Source of the DNA: an uncultured Prochlorococcus sp.
Lineage (GTDB): Bacteria; Cyanobacteriota; Cyanobacteriia; PCC-6307; Cyanobiaceae
Length of the DNA: 64,000 bases
Reading direction: 5' to 3'
Assembly (NCBI GenBank): GCA_902618795.1
Contig: CACNCF010000002.1
Coordinates: forward strand, 1 to 64,000
Shown: positions 11,187 through 53,437 of the stretch, piece after piece
Numbering within the stretch: the first letter of the stretch is position 1
How the letters are laid out: every line of letters starts with the position of its first letter
Program-made: the position numbers and the translations under genes
Notes under the pieces: model-generated
Seen by the model: the letters and a program-made list of their open reading frames with translations, nothing else
What the model was told of the DNA's origin: nothing
Database searches by the model: none

Positions 11187-12239
11187 ATGAAAAAGTTATT
11201 TTCTTTTGTAATGGGGGCAGCTGTTATAGGAACAGCACTTGCACCTTCAGCAAATGCATGGTGGTGGGGTAAAAAAGGTTCTGAAAAGGCTTCAATTACT
11301 GTTTATACTGCTCTAGAAGATGACCAAATACCAAATTACCTAAAATCCTTTGAGAGAGATTACCCTAATATAGAAGTTAATATTGTTAGGGACTCAACAG
11401 GTATAGTTACTGCGAAATTATTGGCTGAGGCTGAAAACCCACAGGCAGATGTGGTTTGGGGTTTAGCTGCTTCAAGTTTATTAGTAGCTAATGATAGAGG
11501 TTTGATTCAAGGTTATGCTCCAAAAGGCCTTTCGAATGTTAAACCAAGCTTTAGGGATCCTGCAAAAAAACCTTCATGGGTTGGAATTGATTCTTGGATT
11601 TCTGCTTTTTGTGTTAATAAAATTGAGGCTCAAAAAAACGGGCTATCAATACCTAAATCTTGGGCAGATTTAACAAAACCAGAATACAAAGGTCACATAG
11701 TTATGTCTAACCCTGCTTCCTCTGGAACAGGTTATTTGTCAGTAGCTTCAAGATTACAAAATTTACCTTCTGAAGAGGATGGTTGGAATTACCTTGATGC
11801 ACTTCATGAAAATATTGCTCAGTATATGCATTCTGGATCTAAGCCTTGTAAGGCTGCAGGTAAAGGAGAGTATCCAATAGGAGTTTCATTTGGTTACAGA
11901 GCTGTAAAACAGGTAAATATGGGGCAACCAATTGAGGCTGTTTTCCCTAAGGAAGGTTCTGGATGGGATGTAGAAGCTAATGCCCTTATCAAAAAAGATA
12001 AAATAAAACCTGCTGCTAAGACTTTTCTTGATTGGGCAATTTCTCCTGAAGTCTCAAGAGAATATGCAAAAAGTTTTGCAATAACAGCTGTTGAAACTGA
12101 TGTTCCGCTTCCTAAAGGTTTCCCTTCTAATCCAGAGAAACAGCTCGCAAAAAATGACTTACAATGGGCTGCTGTAAATAGGGAGAGAATACTAGCAGAG
12201 TGGGCAAAACGCTATGATGGCAAATCTGCTCCTAAGTAA
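11187..12239 (+). CDS. 2-aminoethylphosphonate ABC transporter, periplasmic binding protein
   Basis: 350 residues with a signal peptide (about 1-24, ending ANA). It belongs to the Fe3+/thiamine/AEP-type binding proteins (extracellular solute-binding 1/6): [36 protein letters not shown], and [20 protein letters not shown] late. The pairing with the ATPase and double permease downstream, then a phosphonatase-like enzyme and FAD oxidase, matches the AEP transporter group named PhnSTU-2/AepXVW rather than an iron transporter. A strong hairpin separates it from the ATPase gene, which could raise the binding protein's expression over the rest. Confidence 0.8.
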
Positions 12240-12256
12240 AAATTAAAAGCATATAA

Positions 12257-12291
12257 ATAAATTCCATGAATTAGCAATTCATGGAATTTAT
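12257..12291 (+). promoter_or_regulatory. Perfect 16-bp inverted repeat between transporter genes
   Basis: Arms 12257-12272 and 12276-12291 are exactly complementary around a 3-base loop (AGC). No T run follows, so it is less likely a full terminator than an mRNA 3'-protecting stem or attenuator. It sits 18 bases after the binding-protein stop. This is the usual place for differential expression in ABC operons. Confidence 0.7.
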
Positions 12292-12320
12292 CATCTAGAT
12301 GAATAATTATTTTAAATTTA

Positions 12321-13427
12321 ATGATTAAAAAAGAAGGAAGTTTTAAATATTTAGAAATCAAAAATATCAGTAAAAACTTTGGGGAAACATTCGTTTTGAA
12401 AAATATTCACTTGGATGTTTTTAAGGGAGAATTTTTATGTTTATTAGGACCAAGTGGTTGTGGAAAAACAACTCTGCTAAGAATAATTTCTGGCTTAGAG
12501 AGACAAACAAATGGCGATATTGTTCAAGATGGGCTTTTAATTTCTAATTCCCCCACTGAGAAAAGAGACTTTGGAATTGTTTTTCAGTCATATGCATTAT
12601 TTCCAAACCTTAATGCAAAACAAAATATAGCTTATGGTCTTGAAAATAAAAAAATAAATAAAAAAGAAATTGAAAAAAGAACTAATAATTTACTTCGTTT
12701 GGTTGGATTAGAAAAATATTCTGACCAATTTCCATCTCAATTATCTGGAGGTCAACAACAAAGAGTGGCTTTGGCGAGAGCCATGGCATTATCTCCTGGT
12801 TTACTTTTATTAGATGAACCTCTTTCAGCCCTAGATGCTCAAGTTAGATCAAAATTAAGAAATGAAATTAAACTAATACAAAAGAAACTTAATTTAACTA
12901 CTATCATGGTTACCCATGATCAAACTGAAGCTTTATCTATGGCAGATAGAGTTGTAGTCATGGAAAGAGGTCATATTGCTCAAATTGGAACACCTTTTGA
13001 ATTGTATAAAAATCCAATTACACCGTTTGTTGCTGATTTCATAGGGAAGATGAATTTGTTAAAAGGTAAATATGATAAGAAAAATTGTGTTTTTTATTAT
13101 CTTAATAATAGATTTTTAATTTCACAGAATACAGAATATTCATTTTTAGAAAACTGCTTGCTTGGTATTAGACCTGAAGATATTGAAATTATTAAGTTCA
13201 GAAAAAATATAGAAAAGGAAGAAAATATTCTTAGAGTAAAAATAAAAGAAATTACTTATTTAGGAACAATTTTTAGATTAACAGTAGTTTTAGAATCTAA
13301 GCTAGAAGAAAATATTTTTGTAGACGTTATTTCCAATCAAGTGATCTCTAATAATTTAAGAATTGGAGATTTTATAGATATTAAATTAAAAAAAGAAAAA
13401 ATTAAATTATTTGAAAGTAATTTATAA
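12321..13427 (+). CDS. AEP-type ABC transporter ATP-binding protein
   Basis: 368 residues. Walker A is GPSGCGKTT, the signature is LSGGQQQRVA, Walker B is LLLLDEPLSALD, and the switch histidine is in TIMVTHDQ. A C-terminal TOBE-like regulatory region follows residue 240 (GIRPEDIEII). It energises uptake of the phosphonate bound by the upstream protein. The permease starts 4 bases after its stop. Confidence 0.85.
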   Translation: MIKKEGSFKYLEIKNISKNFGETFVLKNIHLDVFKGEFLCLLGPSGCGKTTLLRIISGLERQTNGDIVQDGLLISNSPTEKRDFGIVFQSYALFPNLNAKQNIAYGLENKKINKKEIEKRTNNLLRLVGLEKYSDQFPSQLSGGQQQRVALARAMALSPGLLLLDEPLSALDAQVRSKLRNEIKLIQKKLNLTTIMVTHDQTEALSMADRVVVMERGHIAQIGTPFELYKNPITPFVADFIGKMNLLKGKYDKKNCVFYYLNNRFLISQNTEYSFLENCLLGIRPEDIEIIKFRKNIEKEENILRVKIKEITYLGTIFRLTVVLESKLEENIFVDVISNQVISNNLRIGDFIDIKLKKEKIKLFESNL

Positions 13428-40764: not shown

Positions 40765-40863
40765 ATAAAAAAGCGAGTCTGGGTAACTCGCTAGTATAAC
40801 TTGGTTTTTAAGAGTCGGGGCGACAGGATTCGAACCTGCGACCTAGTGCTCCCAAAGCACCCG
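40765..40863 (-). repeat. Displaced tRNA-Pro 3' end with terminator (att copy 2)
   Basis: The 99 bases match 45991-46089 with one mismatch: the terminator hairpin (40772-40792, AGCGAGT/ACTCGCT) and the tRNA 3' portion (40815-40863, 49 bases). The tRNA 5' half is missing. C-rich direct repeats (TAGCGCCCC) lie at 40719-40742 to the left. GGACTAAT repeats at 40923 and 40933 and GGGCACT repeats near 40958 and 40968 lie to the right; these may be arm-type sites. Confidence 0.9.
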
Positions 40864-41022: not shown

Positions 41023-41065
41023 TCGGGGCGACAGGATTCGAACCTGCGACCTAGTGCTCCCAAAG
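41023..41065 (-). repeat. Displaced tRNA-Pro 3' end (att copy 3)
   Basis: 43 bases identical to 46041-46083. No terminator hairpin lies on its left, unlike the other copies. It is only 208 bases from copy 2, implying a very small insert or a deletion between two former att sites. The element at 41.1-46 kb lies between this copy and the intact tRNA. Confidence 0.9.
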
Positions 41066-41159
41066 GACTCGATCTATCAAATGAGATTCACTTTAAATCC
41101 CTGTCATAGCCTATATCCTCTTGAAGTAGTGGAACGAATTTAAGACTAAATATAATTAT

Positions 41160-41216
41160 ATCTTCGAAGATTATATAAGGTGTTTATAGATTCTAGCTAC
41201 CCCTACAGCTACCCCC
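41160..41216 (+). repeat. Left end repeat of the 4.9-kb element
   Basis: Palindrome ATCTTCGAAGAT, an 18-base gap, then TTCTAGCTACCC and CAGCTACCCC, a direct AGCTACCC pair. The same pieces, in the same order and orientation, are at 45931-45975. Confidence 0.7.
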
Positions 41217-41251
41217 TAAAGGCCCTAGATTAGATTGGAAAAAAATTAAAT

Positions 41252-41686
41252 TTAGGAGATTTCAAAATTCTTCTCCAACTGAATTTTTTCTTGAATTAAA
41301 TTTCTTGATTGAGATAATGCTTCATCAAATTTTTCTAGCCGTCGAATCCTTTTGTATGAAAGTTCGCGACTAGTTTCTAAACAATCTTTTAGCACTACTG
41401 GAATCATCTTTGATGTGACTAAATCAGAAAATATTTTTTTATCAATATCTAATATTTGAAAAATTATTTGATTTTCTTTTAAATATTGGATAAAGGAATC
41501 ATATTCAGAAAAAAATTCAGAAAGAGAGCTAACTCTCTCAATAAATTGTGAATGATCTCTGAGAAATTTTTGAATTTTATCGGAAATTTCTTCTATTTCG
41601 TAGGGGTTTTTGAATTGATCAGGTTGGTTCATTGTTGATTTTGTTGAATTTAATATGTCTCTAGAATTGATTAGAGGAACATTCAA
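41252..41686 (-). CDS. Hypothetical coiled-coil protein (144 aa)
   Basis: Helical, charged product without membrane segments (EEISDKIQKFLRDHSQFIER; SYKRIRRLEKFDEALSQSRN). The start could be internal (ATG near 41630, MNQPDQFK). It lies 28 bases downstream of the DUF2130 gene on the same strand and is probably its operon partner. No known family. Confidence 0.5.
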   Translation of the reverse strand: MNVPLINSRDILNSTKSTMNQPDQFKNPYEIEEISDKIQKFLRDHSQFIERVSSLSEFFSEYDSFIQYLKENQIIFQILDIDKKIFSDLVTSKMIPVVLKDCLETSRELSYKRIRRLEKFDEALSQSRNLIQEKIQLEKNFEIS

Positions 41687-41714
41687 AGTCCCTCTAAATT
41701 GTTTCTGAAATTAT

Positions 41715-43070
41715 TTATGATTTTTTGTCTAACTCTTTACCTGGTTCTAAAATGTTTGAGTTATTAATTATATTCTCAAATCTAAATTGACTTAATTTGT
41801 TTTTTGCCGTTTCAATATTGTTTGTATCGGTAATATATAGTGCCCTTAATTTTGATAAGCTTTTTATTGACTCATCAATATATTCTAAGAATTTAGGACG
41901 ATTGGAATATACAAGTTCAAGTTGAGGAAGAAGACCTTCTCTGAAGATATTCATGTTTTGGCTGATAATGTCGTTTTTTACATTATTTTGTTTAGCCAAT
42001 CTAAGCTCTCTTTTATCTAGTAATGATTTTCTTGATAATTTTATTATCCAACCAATTATCTGCTTAAAATGCTGAGGCCTGCATACATATAGATTCTTAT
42101 AATCAAATATTTCACATATACCTTCATTATAAAAATCACTATCTTTTTCTAAATTGCCCATCAATACTGCATATTCGCATCCCTTTTTTATTCTATCCTT
42201 ATCTAATTTTTCGAAAAATTTCTTATATTTTCTTTTGGATTTTGTTCCTTCTTTTTCAAACTTCATCTCAAACATTATTGAGGTAACATGATCTCCTTCT
42301 TCATCGCAATATTTCAATATAAAGTCTCCTTTTGTTCCATCGATAAGAATATTATCTTTTTCAAAAGTTGCATTAGGGAAAGCAACTTGTTTTAAAGAGT
42401 TGAACTGATCTACAAAATATTGTTCAAAATCTTCTCCAATATCTTTAGTTAAGCTTGGCTGATGATTTTTTAAACGCTCTATTTCATCTTTAAGGAGTGT
42501 ATTTTCAAGAGTATATTTTTGCTTTAACTCTAGTTCTGCTATTTTTTTATCAGCCTTTATCTGATCCTTCTCCTTATTGATTTTTGCGATCTCCTTATCT
42601 TTTGTTTCTAAGGAATTATTTAGAATAATTTCATGGTTAGCTGCTAAAAGTTTTAAATCATTCTCCAGCTTGCTAATTTTTTCTACTTTTTCCTTTGTAG
42701 CTTTTTCAATGTTTAGCTGGCCTTGTGAATCATTAAGCTCAATAATTTTTTCTAAATTTGATATCTTTTTCTCCAGAGCTTCATTATTTTGTTTTTTATC
42801 ATTTTTATGTTGTTCTTCCTGAAGCTTAATATCATTTCTTAATTGAGTTATTAGATTAACTTTTTCAAGAATCTGCTTCTGATATTTATGATCTAACTCG
42901 TTTTCCTTTATTTTCATGGATTTAGTTAATTCACTTTGAACTTTCTTTTCAAGTTCTGAATTAAACTCTTTTGTTCTGACTTGCTGTGAAATAAGAGCGT
43001 AGTCGGATTTGTCAATTGAAAATGCGCTATGGCATTTTGGACAGGTAATTTGGTTGTGACTTTTAGTCAT
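41715..43070 (-). CDS. DUF2130 coiled-coil protein
   Basis: 451 residues. N-terminal zinc-ribbon knuckle TCPKCHSAFSIDK. A long coiled coil covers about 30-205. A conserved C-terminal domain covers about 205-400: IGEDFEQYFVDQFNSLKQ, FPNATFEKDN, GTKGDFILKY, MFEMKFEKEG and KDRIKKGCEYAVLM are close to the DUF2130 consensus. DUF2130 proteins resemble RmuC and PD-(D/E)xK nucleases (GDFI then EMK here), but their function is unproved. It faces away from the RmuC-like gene across the repeat array. Confidence 0.85.
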   Translation of the reverse strand: MTKSHNQITCPKCHSAFSIDKSDYALISQQVRTKEFNSELEKKVQSELTKSMKIKENELDHKYQKQILEKVNLITQLRNDIKLQEEQHKNDKKQNNEALEKKISNLEKIIELNDSQGQLNIEKATKEKVEKISKLENDLKLLAANHEIILNNSLETKDKEIAKINKEKDQIKADKKIAELELKQKYTLENTLLKDEIERLKNHQPSLTKDIGEDFEQYFVDQFNSLKQVAFPNATFEKDNILIDGTKGDFILKYCDEEGDHVTSIMFEMKFEKEGTKSKRKYKKFFEKLDKDRIKKGCEYAVLMGNLEKDSDFYNEGICEIFDYKNLYVCRPQHFKQIIGWIIKLSRKSLLDKRELRLAKQNNVKNDIISQNMNIFREGLLPQLELVYSNRPKFLEYIDESIKSLSKLRALYITDTNNIETAKNKLSQFRFENIINNSNILEPGKELDKKS

Positions 43071-43129
43071 AATAGATAAAGAATTGAATTTATAAGAAGC
43101 TAGTTTTTACTAGCTGAGAGTTGTATTTT

Positions 43130-43276
43130 TTATTTCCTACTAATTTTTAGTAAAAAATCGCGTATTGCTTCTCTGATTAGAAAGCCTGTAGAAAGTCCTG
43201 GTTTTGAAAATCCCTTAAGTTTTTTATAGTCTTCCTTATCAACAGAAACAGATATCCTTTGTAAGTTGTTATTCAT
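43130..43276 (-). CDS. 48-residue ribbon-helix-helix protein (antitoxin-like)
   Basis: It begins MNNNLQRISVSVDKEDYKKL: a strand, then helices ending GFLIREAIRDFLLKISRK, the length and pattern of a CopG/Arc ribbon-helix-helix DNA-binding protein. Its ATG overlaps the stop of the upstream gene (ATGA), so translation is coupled. By position and size it looks like the antitoxin and autoregulator of a toxin-antitoxin pair. Confidence 0.65.
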   Translation of the reverse strand: MNNNLQRISVSVDKEDYKKLKGFSKPGLSTGFLIREAIRDFLLKISRK

Positions 43277-43554
43277 GTCGATTTGCCATTTGCTAATGAC
43301 TTACTAAAACTGTCTAATCTATAAGCAGTAATTAAGCATCCTTCGCTTTCAACTGCCACAACGCCCCCTTGATCAACAGCTTTAAGGACTTGTTTACGTA
43401 ATTGATCTAATTCCGCTAAAACAACTTTAAGTTGTTTTTTTCCGAGAATAAATTTATCGCCTCTCTTAGATCCATAAGCAATTGCTAGGTCTACAGTTGA
43501 CTGTAAGACCCCTCTTTGCTGTATCCGAGAGCGATAATGATTTGTCTTAATCAT
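43273..43554 (-). CDS. DUF4258-like small protein (toxin-like)
   Basis: 93 residues. NHYRSRIQQRGVLQSTVDLA, then GDKFILGKKQLKVVL and a last VVAVESEGCLITAYR strand fit the RelE-like DUF4258 pattern (H..R...R, then a C-terminal V.V...I.T.YR). It precedes and overlaps the 48-residue RHH gene. Toxin first, antitoxin second is less usual but known. Toxicity is inferred, not shown. Confidence 0.6.
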   Translation of the reverse strand: MIKTNHYRSRIQQRGVLQSTVDLAIAYGSKRGDKFILGKKQLKVVLAELDQLRKQVLKAVDQGGVVAVESEGCLITAYRLDSFSKSLANGKST

Positions 43555-43649
43555 TGATTTAAAAATTAAAAAAAATATATCGATCCCTTAAACACTTCTT
43601 TTAAGCATAGAAAAAACAATAGATGCTTTTTTACTTATGCATGTTAAAA

Positions 43650-43721
43650 TTTGAATGTTAGAAGGGGTAATCCTCTGAAACTTTGAAGACATCAAGCCTG
43701 GCGCGGTTTGGTGTCTTTTTT
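43650..43721 (+). ncRNA. Candidate small RNA ending in an orphan intrinsic terminator
   Basis: A strong terminator (GACATCAAGCC 43688-43698, loop TGGCGC, GGTTTGGTGTC 43705-43715, six T) follows no coding frame. A smaller hairpin (AGGGG, TAAT, CCTCT) lies just before it. TTTACT near 43630 and TTAAAAT near 43634-43641 are weak promoter-like boxes. A short transcript of about 70 bases is inferred. Alternatively it ends a message from further upstream. Confidence 0.5.
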
Positions 43722-43901
43722 AATGGATTTCAGAAAATAATAAAGGAAAGATTCAAAACTATTGAAAGAATAAGAATCATTCACCTTGGTAATCAATGTA
43801 GTGCATGTTTGATACCTTGTCAACAGTTTTAAGAAAAAATAATTATTAATTCCTAGACAACCCTTTTATAACCATATATAATAAGTACATATTAAGGACT
43901 T

Positions 43902-44019
43902 ATTCAGACTTTCTCAGACTTTTCTCAGACTTTTCTCAGACTTTTCTCAGACTTTCTCAGACTTTCTCAGACTTTTTCAGACTTTCTCAGACTTTTCTCA
44001 GACTTTTCTCAGACTTTTG
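43902..44019 (+). repeat. Iteron-like array, 11 copies of a CTCAGACTTTT unit
   Basis: Eleven CAGACTTT boxes at 10-11 bp steps (units CTCAGACTTT and CTCAGACTTTT), so all boxes lie on one face of the helix. The array ends 22 bases before the RmuC-like gene. Such arrays bind replication initiators or partition or repressor proteins. No coding frame explains it. Confidence 0.85.
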
Positions 44020-44041
44020 ATGAGCCTTTAAACAACCTTTA

Positions 44042-45787
44042 ATGAGTTTTATGAATACTGAAAAAGAAATTTTGCTCAATAAAGAGGAGATTAAAACTCT
44101 TGAAAGCAAAATAAAATATGATGAAACTCTAATTAGTAAAGAAGGGCATAATTTCGCCAGGATTGTTTATGAACATAATCAACTTAGAGAGGAGTTAGTG
44201 GATTTCATCCATACTCCCGATTTAAAAAAAAGTATAGATATTTTAATTAATCCTAAAAATGATTCTGTTCAGCTTCTTAGAAGAAATATTGTTAACGTGA
44301 CAAGAATTTATGAAGGTATAGACTCTTCTGAATGGGGAAAAGGTCAACTTGTATCAAGAGAAAAAATAAATTGGAGATTTGATGCTCCTTATTTAACTCA
44401 AGAAGAAGGATTCTCAAATAGTTCTGCTTGCTCCTTAGACATAAAACATATCTTGGATTATGTAGAACTTCTTAACTTTTGTGAATTTGATAAAGAAATA
44501 AATCTAACTAATGAAAAAAATGTTTTGTACAGAACAGATTGCCTAATAAAAGGGAGGAATGATCATTACATAGCGATCGAATTAGATAAAAATTTTAAAA
44601 CCTTCAAAAGATCAATTGCTGAAAAGGATAAGAATAAGAAAAAAGAATATTTAATTAAATATGCGAAAGGATTAAAAGAACAGATTAATCAATTATCCAA
44701 GCTTGAATATAAAAAAAACAATAGTAAAAACAATAAATTCAAACTAGATAATCTTATTTTGTACATTCCTAATGAGACTGCACTTAAGAATGTTCTTGAA
44801 ATAGATCCAGAAATCTTTGAATATGCCTTAGAGAAAAATATTGAACTTACTTTTCCTACAACGATTCTTGCAATTACTTACTATATTTCCTTCTCACTCG
44901 AGCCAAAAGGTATAACCCAAGAATTCAAAAGATTTGAGAAAATTCATAATCGTCTCTTAGATAAAAAAAGAGAAGAAATTGAATCAAACAAGGAAAAGAT
45001 AGATAAGTTGCTAAAAATAAATTTTGAATATCTTAAGGCTCCTTCATATCAGATAAAAGTAACTTTAAATCATGAAGAAAATTATGTTTTAGAAGAAATT
45101 GTTAAAGCTAAAGGTTCAAATAAGTCTTCTGTTCTTAGACAGATACTAATGGAATATAACGGGGTTTATAAAGAAAGGGATGCTTTAAAAATATCTGTAG
45201 AAAAATTAAATTTAGAAATGAAATTCTTGGAAAATAAAAGGATTCAAGAACTTGAGGAAATAATTAATAAACAAGATTTAATTAGAGAAAAATCAATATC
45301 TGAATATAAGCAAAATATGTCAGAAGAAATCCATCAAAAAGATCTCATAGCAAGAGATATTGTTGAAAGACTCAAAGTAACAGAAAACGAATTATTGCGT
45401 AGAACAGAACAATATCAATCAGAGATTAACACTCTAAGAGATGAAATTCATAGAAAAGATGATTTGATGAGTGAATCAATAAAATCCATAAATGAATCTT
45501 TAGCAAACAAAGAACAATCTTTCAAAGAGGATGTAATTAAGAATGCTGTGCAGGTCATTAATCCAAAAAATATTAATGAATTCGGAAAAATCATGGAACT
45601 TATTAATCAAAATATCCTTATTCTCTGTGATACATCCTCTATTGCAAGTAAAGATCAACAAAGATTTATTGATATGGTTTATGGAGGTGTTTATGGACTC
45701 AAAGGAAAAATAAAGGAAGTAAGCAATAAAATATTTTTATATATTCCAAAAAACTTTGACTTGTTTGATGATTCAGTTAGTTCTTAG
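44042..45787 (+). CDS. RmuC-like nuclease domain fused to RHH and coiled coil
   Basis: 581 residues. Residues about 133-310 resemble the RmuC core: TDCLIKGRNDHYIAIELDKNF (as in ...VDSK...), then LILYIPNETALKNVL and DPEIFEYALEKNIELTFPTT, the most conserved RmuC segment. Residues about 337-372 (YQIKVTLNHEENYVLEEI, then SSVLRQILMEY) look like a ribbon-helix-helix DNA-binding segment. A coiled coil follows to about 505. The catalytic (D/E)xK is only loosely matched. The gene starts directly after the iteron array, so the RHH may bind it. This domain order is unusual for RmuC. Confidence 0.7.
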   Translation: MSFMNTEKEILLNKEEIKTLESKIKYDETLISKEGHNFARIVYEHNQLREELVDFIHTPDLKKSIDILINPKNDSVQLLRRNIVNVTRIYEGIDSSEWGKGQLVSREKINWRFDAPYLTQEEGFSNSSACSLDIKHILDYVELLNFCEFDKEINLTNEKNVLYRTDCLIKGRNDHYIAIELDKNFKTFKRSIAEKDKNKKKEYLIKYAKGLKEQINQLSKLEYKKNNSKNNKFKLDNLILYIPNETALKNVLEIDPEIFEYALEKNIELTFPTTILAITYYISFSLEPKGITQEFKRFEKIHNRLLDKKREEIESNKEKIDKLLKINFEYLKAPSYQIKVTLNHEENYVLEEIVKAKGSNKSSVLRQILMEYNGVYKERDALKISVEKLNLEMKFLENKRIQELEEIINKQDLIREKSISEYKQNMSEEIHQKDLIARDIVERLKVTENELLRRTEQYQSEINTLRDEIHRKDDLMSESIKSINESLANKEQSFKEDVIKNAVQVINPKNINEFGKIMELINQNILILCDTSSIASKDQQRFIDMVYGGVYGLKGKIKEVSNKIFLYIPKNFDLFDDSVSS

Positions 45788-45930
45788 AAATTAGATGGTT
45801 TTAGTAAAAGTACAAAGCATGATTAACTACCCTCTATTTTTTTCTTATCTATGTTTTCGCAAAATATTTTAACTATCTATTAAACGCTTAAGACTTAACT
45901 ATATTGTTATGAATTAATGCCAATTTAGGG

Positions 45931-45975
45931 AATCTTCGAAGATTCTAGCTACCCTTTCAGCTACCCTTTGGGGGT
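45931..45975 (+). repeat. Right end repeat of the 4.9-kb element
   Basis: Palindrome AATCTTCGAAGATT, directly followed by CTAGCTACCC and CAGCTACCC. This is the same set as 41160-41216 in the same orientation, but without the 18-base insert. It lies 16 bases before the tRNA terminator. Confidence 0.7.
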
Positions 45976-45992
45976 ATGAGACAACATCCAAT

Positions 45993-46018
45993 AAAAAAGC
46001 GAGTCTGGGAAACTCGCT
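45993..46018 (-). terminator. tRNA-Pro terminator
   Basis: Hairpin AGCGAGT (45998-46004) / ACTCGCT (46012-46018). Read on the minus strand it is followed by six T. It lies 22 bases beyond the tRNA 3' end and is copied at 40772-40792 and, less exactly, at 1531-1550. Confidence 0.8.
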
Positions 46019-46040
46019 AGTATAACTTGGTTTTTAAGAG

Positions 46041-46114
46041 TCGGGGCGACAGGATTCGAACCTGCGACCTAGTGCTCCCAAAGCACCCGCGCTACCAAGC
46101 TGCGCCACGCCCCG
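46041..46114 (-). tRNA. trnP-UGG: tRNA-Pro (UGG)
   Basis: 74 bases. Acceptor stem CGGGGCG/CGCCCCG, D arm GCGC..AGCTTGGTA..GCGC, anticodon loop TTTGGGA with TGG, T loop TTCGAAT, discriminator A; CCA is not encoded. It is complete, so it remains functional despite the integrations at its 3' end. The 3' half occurs as displaced copies at 1574, 40815 and 41023. The gene marks the right boundary of the accessory region. Confidence 0.97.
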
Positions 46115-48941: not shown

Positions 48942-49119
48942 ATTTCGAAATCAATAATTTAAATAAAAATACAAATTAAATATACAAATAATTAATTAAA
49001 AGACTGTATAGGTTTAGAAAGTGGCACAAATTATTCAAAAGTGTAGCCATTAATACTTGATTTTGTATGCCTAAATACACTATCTTGAGGTGTACTTTAA
49101 ATTTCGTGTGAGGAAATTT

Positions 49120-50211
49120 ATGAAGCTTTTTAAAAGCTTGCTAGTAGCACCAGCGACATTAGGCTTGCTAGCGCCTTTGTCAGCTACTGCAAATGAAGTC
49201 ACTATTAATGACTTCAATGCTGCAGAAGAAATTGCAGTTACAAATAGCCGTGTAGACGGTTTAGAGGCTAGACTAAACAATTTTGAAGCTGGTAGTTTCT
49301 CAGAAACAACTACTGCATCATTCAGCGTTGACACTGTTATAGGTCAAGTTGATGGCGCTGGAGACACTGGAGATGATTCTAACGAATCAACAAGTTTCGA
49401 CTTCCAATTCAACATCGGTTTATCAACAAGTTTCACAGGTGAAGATTCACTTGATATAGCTATTGATAACGGTAGTGCAACAGCATCAACTATGGGTGGA
49501 AAAATGGGTTTCGACACAGGAACCAGCTTAGTTGTTGATGGTGTTACTTATTCATTCCCTCTTGGTGGAGCAACAGCGATTGTTGGTGATTCAACTGACC
49601 TAAGTACAGCATTTACAGGAGCTTGTACTTACAGTTCATTCACTGATATGACACCAGACGATTGTGGTACTGGTAACTCTATGGGTGCAGGCGGTAAAGG
49701 TGTTACTGCAGCAGTAAGTTATGCATTTGATTCTGGATTCTCTATGGCTGGTGGAATAACATCTGCACAAAGTGAAATCTTAGGAGATAATGCTGATGCA
49801 TTCGGTCTTAATGCTGCTTATTCAGCAGACAGTTACGGAGTAGCTCTTGCATACGTATCTGATGATATGGGATCAGGCACTGATTCAACAACATACTGGG
49901 GTGCTAACGGTTACTACACCTTTGATTTAGCAAGCCTAAGTGTTGGTTTCGAAACTTCAGATGACGGAACTACTGAGAAATCTGGATACTTCGTTGGTCT
50001 ATCTTTCCCAGAAGTTGGCCCTGGTTCAGTAAACATTGCTGCAGCAACTGATGCACTTTATGCTGACAATGCGACAGAGTATCTTGTATATGAAGCGTCT
50101 TACTCTTATCCAGTAAATGATGCTATGACTATCACACCTGGTATCTTCATTCAGGAGACATCTGCTGAAGATTTAACAGGAATAGCTGTTAAAACTTCAT
50201 TCTCTTTCTAA
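49120..50211 (+). CDS. Som-type outer-membrane porin, copy 1
   Basis: 363 residues from the ATG at 49120 (MKLFKSLLVAPATLGLLAPL, signal peptide); a frame from 49090 is longer but starts before the GAGG ribosome site. It has a short coiled coil (VTNSRVDGLEARLNNFEAGS) and then a 16-strand-type barrel ending AVKTSFSF with terminal Phe. Unlike the phosphate porin it lacks the SLH segment. From codon SETTT to 84 bases past the stop it is identical to copy 2. Confidence 0.85.
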   Translation: MKLFKSLLVAPATLGLLAPLSATANEVTINDFNAAEEIAVTNSRVDGLEARLNNFEAGSFSETTTASFSVDTVIGQVDGAGDTGDDSNESTSFDFQFNIGLSTSFTGEDSLDIAIDNGSATASTMGGKMGFDTGTSLVVDGVTYSFPLGGATAIVGDSTDLSTAFTGACTYSSFTDMTPDDCGTGNSMGAGGKGVTAAVSYAFDSGFSMAGGITSAQSEILGDNADAFGLNAAYSADSYGVALAYVSDDMGSGTDSTTYWGANGYYTFDLASLSVGFETSDDGTTEKSGYFVGLSFPEVGPGSVNIAAATDALYADNATEYLVYEASYSYPVNDAMTITPGIFIQETSAEDLTGIAVKTSFSF

Positions 50212-52303: not shown

Positions 52304-53437
52304 ATGAAGCTTTTTAAAAGCTTGTTAGTAGCTCCAGCAACTATTGGGCTGTTAGCTCCATTTTCTACTTTTGCTGGCGAGGCAAGCTTAAATGATATCT
52401 CAAAATACTCTAATCTAGAGCATATTGACCTCGCTAATGCTTTTACTAATGATGAACCAAATCATACGCCTTTACTTGCTGGTGGAGAAGGTTTAGTTGA
52501 AAGTAGTAGCTATGATGGAGGGTTTTCAGAAACAACTACTGCATCATTCAGCGTTGACACTGTTATAGGTCAAGTTGATGGCGCTGGAGACACTGGAGAT
52601 GATTCTAACGAATCAACAAGTTTCGACTTCCAATTCAACATCGGTTTATCAACAAGTTTCACAGGTGAAGATTCACTTGATATAGCTATTGATAACGGTA
52701 GTGCAACAGCATCAACTATGGGTGGAAAAATGGGTTTCGACACAGGAACCAGCTTAGTTGTTGATGGTGTTACTTATTCATTCCCTCTTGGTGGAGCAAC
52801 AGCGATTGTTGGTGATTCAACTGACCTAAGTACAGCATTTACAGGAGCTTGTACTTACAGTTCATTCACTGATATGACACCAGACGATTGTGGTACTGGT
52901 AACTCTATGGGTGCAGGCGGTAAAGGTGTTACTGCAGCAGTAAGTTATGCATTTGATTCTGGATTCTCTATGGCTGGTGGAATAACATCTGCACAAAGTG
53001 AAATCTTAGGAGATAATGCTGATGCATTCGGTCTTAATGCTGCTTATTCAGCAGACAGTTACGGAGTAGCTCTTGCATACGTATCTGATGATATGGGATC
53101 AGGCACTGATTCAACAACATACTGGGGTGCTAACGGTTACTACACCTTTGATTTAGCAAGCCTAAGTGTTGGTTTCGAAACTTCAGATGACGGAACTACT
53201 GAGAAATCTGGATACTTCGTTGGTCTATCTTTCCCAGAAGTTGGCCCTGGTTCAGTAAACATTGCTGCAGCAACTGATGCACTTTATGCTGACAATGCGA
53301 CAGAGTATCTTGTATATGAAGCGTCTTACTCTTATCCAGTAAATGATGCTATGACTATCACACCTGGTATCTTCATTCAGGAGACATCTGCTGAAGATTT
53401 AACAGGAATAGCTGTTAAAACTTCATTCTCTTTCTAA
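52304..53437 (+). CDS. Som-type outer-membrane porin, copy 2
   Basis: 377 residues. The signal peptide and first 75 residues differ from copy 1 (FAGEASLNDISKYSNLEHID, LLAGGEGLVESSSYDGGF) and lack the coiled coil, keeping an AGGEGL segment also seen in the phosphate porin. From residue 75 (SETTT) to the end the protein is identical to copy 1, as is the DNA through the terminator. This mosaic indicates gene conversion from one copy to the other. Confidence 0.85.
   Translation: MKLFKSLLVAPATIGLLAPFSTFAGEASLNDISKYSNLEHIDLANAFTNDEPNHTPLLAGGEGLVESSSYDGGFSETTTASFSVDTVIGQVDGAGDTGDDSNESTSFDFQFNIGLSTSFTGEDSLDIAIDNGSATASTMGGKMGFDTGTSLVVDGVTYSFPLGGATAIVGDSTDLSTAFTGACTYSSFTDMTPDDCGTGNSMGAGGKGVTAAVSYAFDSGFSMAGGITSAQSEILGDNADAFGLNAAYSADSYGVALAYVSDDMGSGTDSTTYWGANGYYTFDLASLSVGFETSDDGTTEKSGYFVGLSFPEVGPGSVNIAAATDALYADNATEYLVYEASYSYPVNDAMTITPGIFIQETSAEDLTGIAVKTSFSF

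Follow-up and report, generated by a model that had tools for sequence, protein, structure and literature searches.

An Eleven-Copy, Helically Phased Repeat Array before an RmuC-RHH-SepF Gene in a Prochlorococcus tRNA-Pro Island: A Probable Cooperative Operator

Results

The analysis of a 64,000-nucleotide stretch of DNA from an uncultured Prochlorococcus sp. (assembly GCA_902618795.1, contig CACNCF010000002.1, positions 1 to 64,000; hereafter, the window) revealed an eleven-copy tandem array (43903-44018, plus strand) placed between a sigma-70-like promoter and a gene encoding a 581-aa protein (44042-45787, plus strand) with RmuC, RHH-like and SepF parts. We consider it probable that this array is an amplified multi-site operator, bound cooperatively by the RHH domain of the protein encoded by its own gene, and autorepression is probably the function of such an operator. 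The array itself, the promoter-like sequence, the box that follows it, the gene order, the domains recognized by profile (RHH weakly) and the boxes at three related genes were observed directly.

The Repeat Array and Its Phase

The unit of the array reads (C/T)TCAGACTTT(T), with the core AGACTTT and a spacing of 10-11 bp. Tandem Repeats Finder reported it at 43904-44018 with a period of 11, 10.9 copies and 93% matches, the top copy number among 14 rows. When up to one mismatch was allowed, CTCAGACTTT showed 21 matches in the window, against a mean of 6.59 (maximum 13) in shuffled sequences, and 11 of these 21 belonged to the array, nine of them exact and the other two reading TTCAGACTTT. In addition, the array was the sole place in the 64-kb window where a 7-mer occurred at least five times without overlap within about 120 bp. 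The eleven copies described in the initial annotation were confirmed by both the repeat finder and the pattern counts against shuffles.

The CAGACTTT starts, at positions 43905, 43915, 43926, 43937, 43948, 43958, 43968, 43978, 43988, 43999 and 44010, are separated by 10, 11, 11, 11, 10, 10, 10, 10, 11 and 11 bp, that is, five spacings of 10 and five of 11 with a mean of 10.5 bp, and every box lies at most 1 bp off a 10.5-bp phase. Given this mean period, the boxes fall on one face of the DNA, as had been proposed from their 10-11 bp recurrence, although the sequence of 10s and 11s is not itself significant, since 162 of the 252 possible orders are equally good. CRISPR spacers are absent, the units being arranged head to tail, and the earlier exclusion of a CRISPR holds. 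The array showed no obvious coding (between stops, its six frames are open for 48, 56 and 48 codons on the plus strand and 13, 9 and 9 on the minus strand), and it is separated from the ATG at 44042 by 23 bases, one more than first counted.

The exact pattern CAGACTTT-N1-3-CAGACTTT was found in one of the 266 genomes of the genus set, ten times and always within the array; that genome is the window's own, which is included in the set and is incomplete (1.07 Mb, completeness 71.8). Elsewhere, three copies of CAGACTTT were present in 24 viral-contig and 34 genome-contig stretches. The surrounding DNA was read in 12 of these 58, those with a spacing other than 9 bp throughout, and most of them contained other units, such as CACCAGACTTT and CCAGACTTTT. 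Near-identical units were seen in L070 (TTCAGACTTTTT) and L100 (TTTTTCAGACTTT), a viral contig and a Pedobacter contig, respectively, whose TTCAGACTTTT-like arrays have no RHH-SepF relative in the stretch. Among the 5551 open frames of the 58 stretches, none matched the RHH-SepF or RHH profiles at E ≤ 1; the same profiles do recover G065, G125 and ordinary SepF in a control.

The Promoter and Its Boxes, Compared with Those of Related Genes

The promoter-like sequence TAGACA-17-TATAAT (43854-43882, plus strand) matches the sigma-70 consensus at 11 of 12 positions and has the same layout as at the relatives of the gene. It is followed by an AGTCCTT box (AAGGACT on the plus strand; 43894-43900, minus strand) that directly precedes the array and corresponds exactly to the 7-mer common to the upstream regions of three relatives, those of genomes G065, G111 and G125. 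Within the 300 bp upstream of each of these genes, AGTCCTT/AAGGACT was the only 7-mer with at least three G/C present at least twice (3, 2 and 3 copies, respectively). No such shared 7-mer appeared in 2000 dinucleotide-shuffled sets, a count that became 378 of 2000 once AT-rich 7-mers were allowed, and the background of AAGGACT is 0.115 per kb (46 in 400 kb of controls). Moreover, the three relatives present a direct AGTCCTT pair exactly 30 bp apart, at -171/-141, -175/-145 and -172/-142 from the start codon. No 7-mer pair at one common spacing was obtained in 2000 shuffles, and the 30-bp AGTCCTT pair was not found in 2.03 Mb of other loci, which overlap mutually and leave out the three genes' own loci.

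When the four promoters were aligned on GGACT, all of them showed the same order of -35, -10, GGACT and second half-site. The GGACT and its second half-site read GGACTGAGTCC, GGACTAATTCC and GGACTCTCAGTCC in the relatives, the second half of the start-site pair in L198 being ATTCC, and GGACTTATTCAGACT in the window, where the array then continues. Repeated or inverted sites are present at the start region of the gene's own promoter, itself recognized by consensus only. The consensus scan found TTGACC-17-TAAATT in L198 and L025 but not in L199, where it was read by eye; the gene-ward promoter-like sites are weak in the window and in the relatives, with numbers close to those of shuffles (three in the window region versus a shuffle mean of 3.3). 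The last array unit lies at -31, and the proximal boxes of the relatives lie at -20 to -33. A promoter-like sequence for a divergent gene is also found at each of the three relatives, with one member of the 30-bp pair inside its spacer, immediately ahead of the -10. This is a typical repressor placement, and these relatives probably repress a divergent gene too.

The core AGACTTT and the box AGTCCTT are identical at five of seven positions and differ at two; the 30-bp pair is missing from the window, and none of the three relatives has an array. Literally, then, the array is absent beside the homologous genes at all three relatives, yet related boxes stand there. The upstream alignment of these relatives keeps other blocks as well (TCAATC, ATTGAC and GTTTAAAT), and because of these blocks and of the homology of the loci, the likeness of the upstream boxes is partly due to common descent. 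With regard to the cooperative operator or autoregulation put forward at the outset, the related boxes behind the promoters of three RHH-SepF genes argue in its favor, whereas the replication origin offered as another option was not borne out, as the Pfam scan of the five genes in the element described below showed no Rep protein.

Further copies were seen away from the promoters. G065 carries three boxes 3' of its gene, consisting of a perfect inverted pair, AAGGACT-ATAGC-AGTCCTT, and one AGTCCTT. In L202, three further AGTCCTT boxes at 12163-12418 span about 250 bp of a coding gene, a density far above 0.115 per kb. The TTTAGTCCACAAA x3 repeat of L198, which contains AGTCC and lies beside tRNA-Ser, was taken for arm sites and left out of the box counts. 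In the window, a terminator-like hairpin (43700-43715) is located in the middle of the divergent intergenic region and could belong to a small RNA, although without an Rfam match; over 40-47 kb, only tRNA exceeded the Rfam gathering score.

The Protein Encoded behind the Array

The 581-aa protein includes an RmuC domain at aa 134-323 (44441-45010, plus strand; PF02646, E 1.3e-21, above the curated cut-off), an RHH-like segment composed of YQIKVTLN and two helices (45050-45163, plus strand), a predicted long helix or coiled coil (45176-45547, plus strand; AF2 model), and a SepF domain at aa 503-573 (45548-45760, plus strand; PF04472, E 2.6e-14, above the curated cut-off). The RHH-like segment, located between RmuC and SepF, matched DUF6290 (E 3.8e-4) and RHH_1 (E 0.013), both below cut-off. 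This segment and a 48-residue RHH protein encoded nearby had been noticed in the initial annotation and are indeed present; the SepF domain, the RHH-SepF family and the tRNA-Pro island are additions to it. PADLOC assigned the RmuC part to RTasRmuC (E 3.8e-7). The DSK of RmuC proteins is catalytic, and when the window protein was aligned with 12 such proteins of the genus, it showed ELD at the place of this conserved DSK; with this replacement, nuclease activity of its RmuC domain seems doubtful.

The AF2 model obtained from a four-row alignment (mean pLDDT 75.1, pTM 0.28) showed two helices where the RHH segment was expected, followed by the long helix and a SepF fold, although the RHH strand was not formed in the monomer models. 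A Foldseek search with the RHH segment returned, in its first ten rows, the CopA-SO antitoxin, ORF56, CopG (three rows), ParDE, MazEF-mt1, Arc (two rows) and ParG, with E values of 0.19-0.54 and probabilities of 0.89-0.99; we take these names to be RHH proteins, the MazEF chain being unchecked. The SepF part retrieved SepF structures, including the SepF-FtsZ complexes 6scs and 6sat.

In the four proteins, the RHH strand follows the pattern Q-x-K-V-x-(L/F)-N with invariant Q and K. At the next outward position, just after V, the window protein carries T, and the other three have H or N. In MetJ, by analogy, Lys-x-Thr reads AGAC. The change from T to H/N might parallel that from AGACT to AGTCC, a parallel that is only suggestive because it is drawn from four proteins.

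Over its length, the SepF domain shares 21% identity with the SepF of the host, and all four proteins retain the glycine that aligns with G109 of B. subtilis (G109K mutant, 3zii). At the position of F131 of C. glutamicum SepF, the window protein has F, with F or Y across all four, and at that of K125, E is found in the window protein and L025 and K in L198 and L199, the numbering being that of the 63-152 construct as given in PMC7118173 and of the 90-residue chain 6sat_A. As described in that source, the binding of C. glutamicum SepF to FtsZ was greatly weakened by F131A and abolished by K125E/F131A (PMC7118173).

A Family of RHH-SepF Genes near tRNA

No full-length relative of the 581-aa protein was found in the other 265 genomes of the genus (among the matches listed, best first), in the other 398 genomes of the order, or in the genome_contigs, viral_contigs, phages and plasmids collections. 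Shorter relatives, all without RmuC, were detected in three genomes. That of G065, 219 aa in length, carries an RHH-like segment in its N-terminal part and SepF in its C-terminal part, and its use as a query at E ≤ 1e-4 recovered five of the 266 genomes, corresponding to the window's own, G065 itself, G111, G125 and a remnant in G090. The G111 protein is 54% identical and continues into TPR repeats and off the contig, whereas that of G125 is 29% identical and 280 aa long; by loci, L025 and L198 are 54% identical, and L199 29%. The G090 remnant, 89% identical over aa 511-580, lies beside an integrase gene and a tRNA-Pro core. SepF exceeds its Pfam cut-off in the G065, G111 and G125 proteins, and none of the four proteins reaches the gathering cut-off for RHH, L198 having no RHH family listed at all.

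A profile built from the four proteins (A1) matched 261 of 399 genomes of the order at E ≤ 1e-8. Among the matches listed, only those of the window's own genome and G125 spanned the whole profile; the rest covered its second half and were, judged by open-frame length, mostly ordinary SepF, and G065 and G111 did not appear among them. RHH-SepF relatives were not found in viral_contigs with three queries or in plasmids with the G125 protein as a query. In phages, matches were restricted to the SepF part (MT839054 and MT838504), the former being unannotated and having neighbors that look chromosomal by eye, and in plasmids an RmuC match was located on a Nocardia plasmid.

All four RHH-SepF genes are near tRNA genes or cores. 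The gene of G065 is flanked by the intact tRNA-Ser on one side and by a 30-base copy of its 5' part on the other, that of G111 at about 1.1 kb from tRNA-Ser, and that of G125 at about 1.4 kb from a tRNA-Pro core. By eye, the RHH-SepF genes at L202 (10976-11634), L198 (591-1252) and L235 (673-1805) are accompanied by a similar 63-75-aa protein and a TPR-like protein, encoded divergently in two of the loci and downstream in the third. An RHH-SepF fusion was not found in the literature searched, mostly outside subscription papers; one match joining RmuC and SepF was unrelated, as judged by its title, and a TubY paper mentions SepF for its amphipathic tail.

A Model of Autorepression and a Possible Link with Division

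We infer RHH binding, cooperativity, repression and amplification from the sequence features described above. RHH dimers of the 581-aa protein would bind the AGACTTT core of each unit, and neighboring dimers would cooperate, as the position of the sites on one DNA face with a mean period of 10.5 bp makes possible, with probable help from the coiled coil and the SepF domain. SepF domains dimerize and polymerize, and the binding of repeats by RHH proteins, as operators and as centromeres, is well known. As the start of the first box lies 11 bases past the -10 hexamer, filled sites would shut off the gene's own promoter. The array itself would have arisen by amplification of one half-site of a GGACT-Nx-AGTCC operator, which is found at the same place in the related genes. 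With less certainty, the bound DNA may also be anchored, through the SepF end, at the division ring or the membrane.

This last step leads to the alternative that best survives, in which the array is a centromere-like site: RHH would bind it and SepF would couple the DNA to FtsZ or to the membrane, in such a way that the element is positioned at division. The mode of action would be that of ParR-parC or MatP-matS, except that SepF would stand in for a dedicated motor, and this reading is compatible with autorepression. The SepF assignment by profile (E 2.6e-14) and by fold (6scs and 6sat among the matches), the F/Y at the F131 position and the G109-aligned glycine in all four proteins, and the boxes 3' of the G065 gene are consistent with it, as are the requirement of R1 ParR for at least two 11-bp repeats and the binding of pB171 ParR to 10-bp repeats, as described in PMC9426499. 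However, the K125 position is E in the window protein and L025, and the K125E/F131A change is the one that abolished FtsZ binding (PMC7118173); furthermore, Pfam revealed no NTPase in the element's five genes, and repression alone accounts for boxes at promoters. We therefore regard a centromere-like role as possible but rather unlikely, and the partition origin initially suggested stays as a working analogy, there being no NTPase partner in those five genes. Its most explicit form, in which the RHH-SepF proteins of mobile islands are one-protein tethers, with RHH covering a phased array and SepF hooking the FtsZ ring or polymerizing for motor-free segregation or positioning, is put forward tentatively, as slightly less likely again.

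If the protein is only an autorepressor, the array would illustrate the growth, by amplification, of an operator with two half-sites into a helically phased series. Should the fusion of RHH to the FtsZ-anchoring SepF, which recurs with related operators at four tRNA-associated loci, act as a tether, it would physically link mobile DNA and the division ring, a link for whose study the 11-site array is a ready substrate.

The tRNA-Pro Element and Other Readings of the Array

The array is carried by a 5-kb element (41066-46042) located between two tRNA-Pro cores and containing end repeats and five genes. An intact tRNA-Pro (TGG; 46040-46114, minus strand) includes from 46043 the exact 41-base copy of the 3' half, and exact matches to these 41 bases were found at 1576-1616, 40817-40857 and 41025-41065. 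A repeat search located two copies of AGCTACCC, probable integrase arm sites, at both the left (41195-41217, plus strand) and right (45947-45969, plus strand) ends. In addition to the 581-aa protein, the element encodes on the minus strand a 144-aa protein without a Pfam match above cut-off (41252-41686), a 451-aa DUF2130 protein (41715-43070), the 48-aa RHH protein (43130-43276; RHH_1, 20.7 bits for a cut-off of 20.5), and a 93-aa DUF4258-like protein (43273-43554; E 0.01, below cut-off), a possible partner of the former. By Pfam, none of the five genes encodes an integrase or recombinase, a Rep protein, or an NTPase.

Two observations were made on neighboring and related genes. Elsewhere in the window, two porin-like genes (49090-50211 and 52304-53437) have long C-terminal parts that are identical-looking by eye in translation, a pair that looks like a recent duplication or gene conversion. 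In L020, an RmuC gene (826-2220) has its 5' end replaced by a segment that, by eye, looks like the N-terminus of the integrase of G090, and its position beside a truncated tRNA-Pro reads as an insertion scar.

The main rival binder is the 48-aa RHH protein, whose gene follows the DUF4258-like one at 43130-43554 on the minus strand in what looks like a type II toxin-antitoxin pair. RHH antitoxins bind repeated operators, and the array could be the operator of this antitoxin-like protein, which belongs to the divergent DUF4258-RHH-DUF2130 run. The protein belongs to the same element and passes the RHH_1 cut-off, scoring better than the segment of the large gene; hhalign gave no real alignment between it and the RHH alignment. 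However, 349 bp separate the DUF4258 start codon from the beginning of the array, which lies behind the promoter of the other gene, and the sole DUF4258 homologue detected (G061, 55%; two of 60 genomes, including the window's own) has no array and a single AGACTTT in 3.3 kb, a comparison that is weak because no 48-aa RHH-like ORF was seen directly behind the G061 gene. We judge this assignment improbable.

A lower probability corresponds to the array acting within a leader RNA, or to its being a neutral repeat produced by slippage and bound by no protein. Transcription would run through the array, the units vary between T3 and T4 in a slippage-like manner, and the array is unique in 266 genomes; yet the predicted folding of the leader was no better than that of shuffles (z +1.29, with 180 of 200 shuffles at least as good), and the boxes of the relatives and the exact AAGGACT box would be left unexplained, which makes this reading very improbable.

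Short repeats at tRNA-Pro cores were surveyed in 43 island loci (the window, L046, L047 and L136-L175, some genomes contributing two loci), amounting to 806 kb with 220 cores, and in 20 control stretches from three genomes (400 kb, no core), keeping repeats with a period of 9-13, at least three G/C per unit and at least 80% matches. This yielded 322 rows in the islands, 233 of them within 300 bp of a core, versus 22 in the controls. After merging, 228 of 314 distinct arrays lay no more than 300 bp away from a core (139 of the 806 kb fall in this zone), and 166 of the 220 cores had such a repeat within that distance, mostly of 2-3 copies. The distances of these 228 fell into classes, with 63 at 84-100 bp, 57 at 69-83, 44 at 115-145, 35 at 46-58, 12 at 26-34, 3 at 60-65 and 14 elsewhere. 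These core-near repeats are probably integrase arm-type sites, with a readable code in their distance classes. Only two island arrays reached at least 3.9 copies, that of the window and GTGCCCAAAAA x3.9 in L150 (4714-4756), a second internal array, whose distance to a core is 812 bp; it precedes a 107-aa ORF by 188 bp, and similar units are found at the ends of the element that contains it.

Although this clustering of 9-13-bp repeats could suggest that the array, too, serves the integrase or excisionase of the mobile element as arm sites, its eleven copies and its distance of 2025 bp from the nearest core, as opposed to the 2-3 copies in fixed distance classes of most core-near repeats, led us to reject an ordinary integrase arm site on the basis of the 43 island loci and 20 control stretches, and such a role is extremely unlikely, all the more so as the element already has AGCTACCC repeats at both ends and the one TCAGACTTT-like pair found near a core (G020, 292 bp away, TCAGGCTTT..TCAGAGTTT) was obtained with one mismatch allowed per half, with no exact pair.

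Comparison with Known Systems

The preferred reading, a cooperative autoregulatory operator, can be set against several known systems. An iteron replication origin differs in that no Rep initiator gene was found by Pfam among the five genes of the element. MatP chains appeared among the Foldseek matches of the window RHH segment. MatP, an RHH protein with a coiled coil, is not known to carry a SepF domain, and its matS sites are scattered and single; in contrast, the array is tandem and the window protein carries SepF. Like the proposed tether, MatP of E. coli is a DNA-binding protein that coordinates chromosome segregation with division, as stated in PMC12756933.

The ParR-parC systems of R1 and pB171 resemble the locus in combining an RHH protein with 10-11 bp direct repeats near the operon promoter, according to PMC9426499, but no ParM or other NTPase was seen in the element, its repeats are only behind the promoter, and its RHH-like segment is fused to SepF and RmuC. 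CdrS of Haloferax is also an RHH regulator tied to cell division, and its repression lowers sepF, as described in PMC8406309; it is, however, archaeal, and the proteins are separate, with no fusion. The tycheposons of Prochlorococcus are tRNA-bordered cargo islands of 4-200 kb, as given in PMC10872708, a description close to that of the 5-kb element, although no tyrosine recombinase was found among the five genes of 41066-46042, and the G090 SepF remnant adjoins an integrase. Finally, the window protein shares with SepF the fold, the G109-aligned glycine and the aromatic residue of the FtsZ pocket, and differs from it in carrying this domain C-terminal to an RHH-like segment and a coiled coil.
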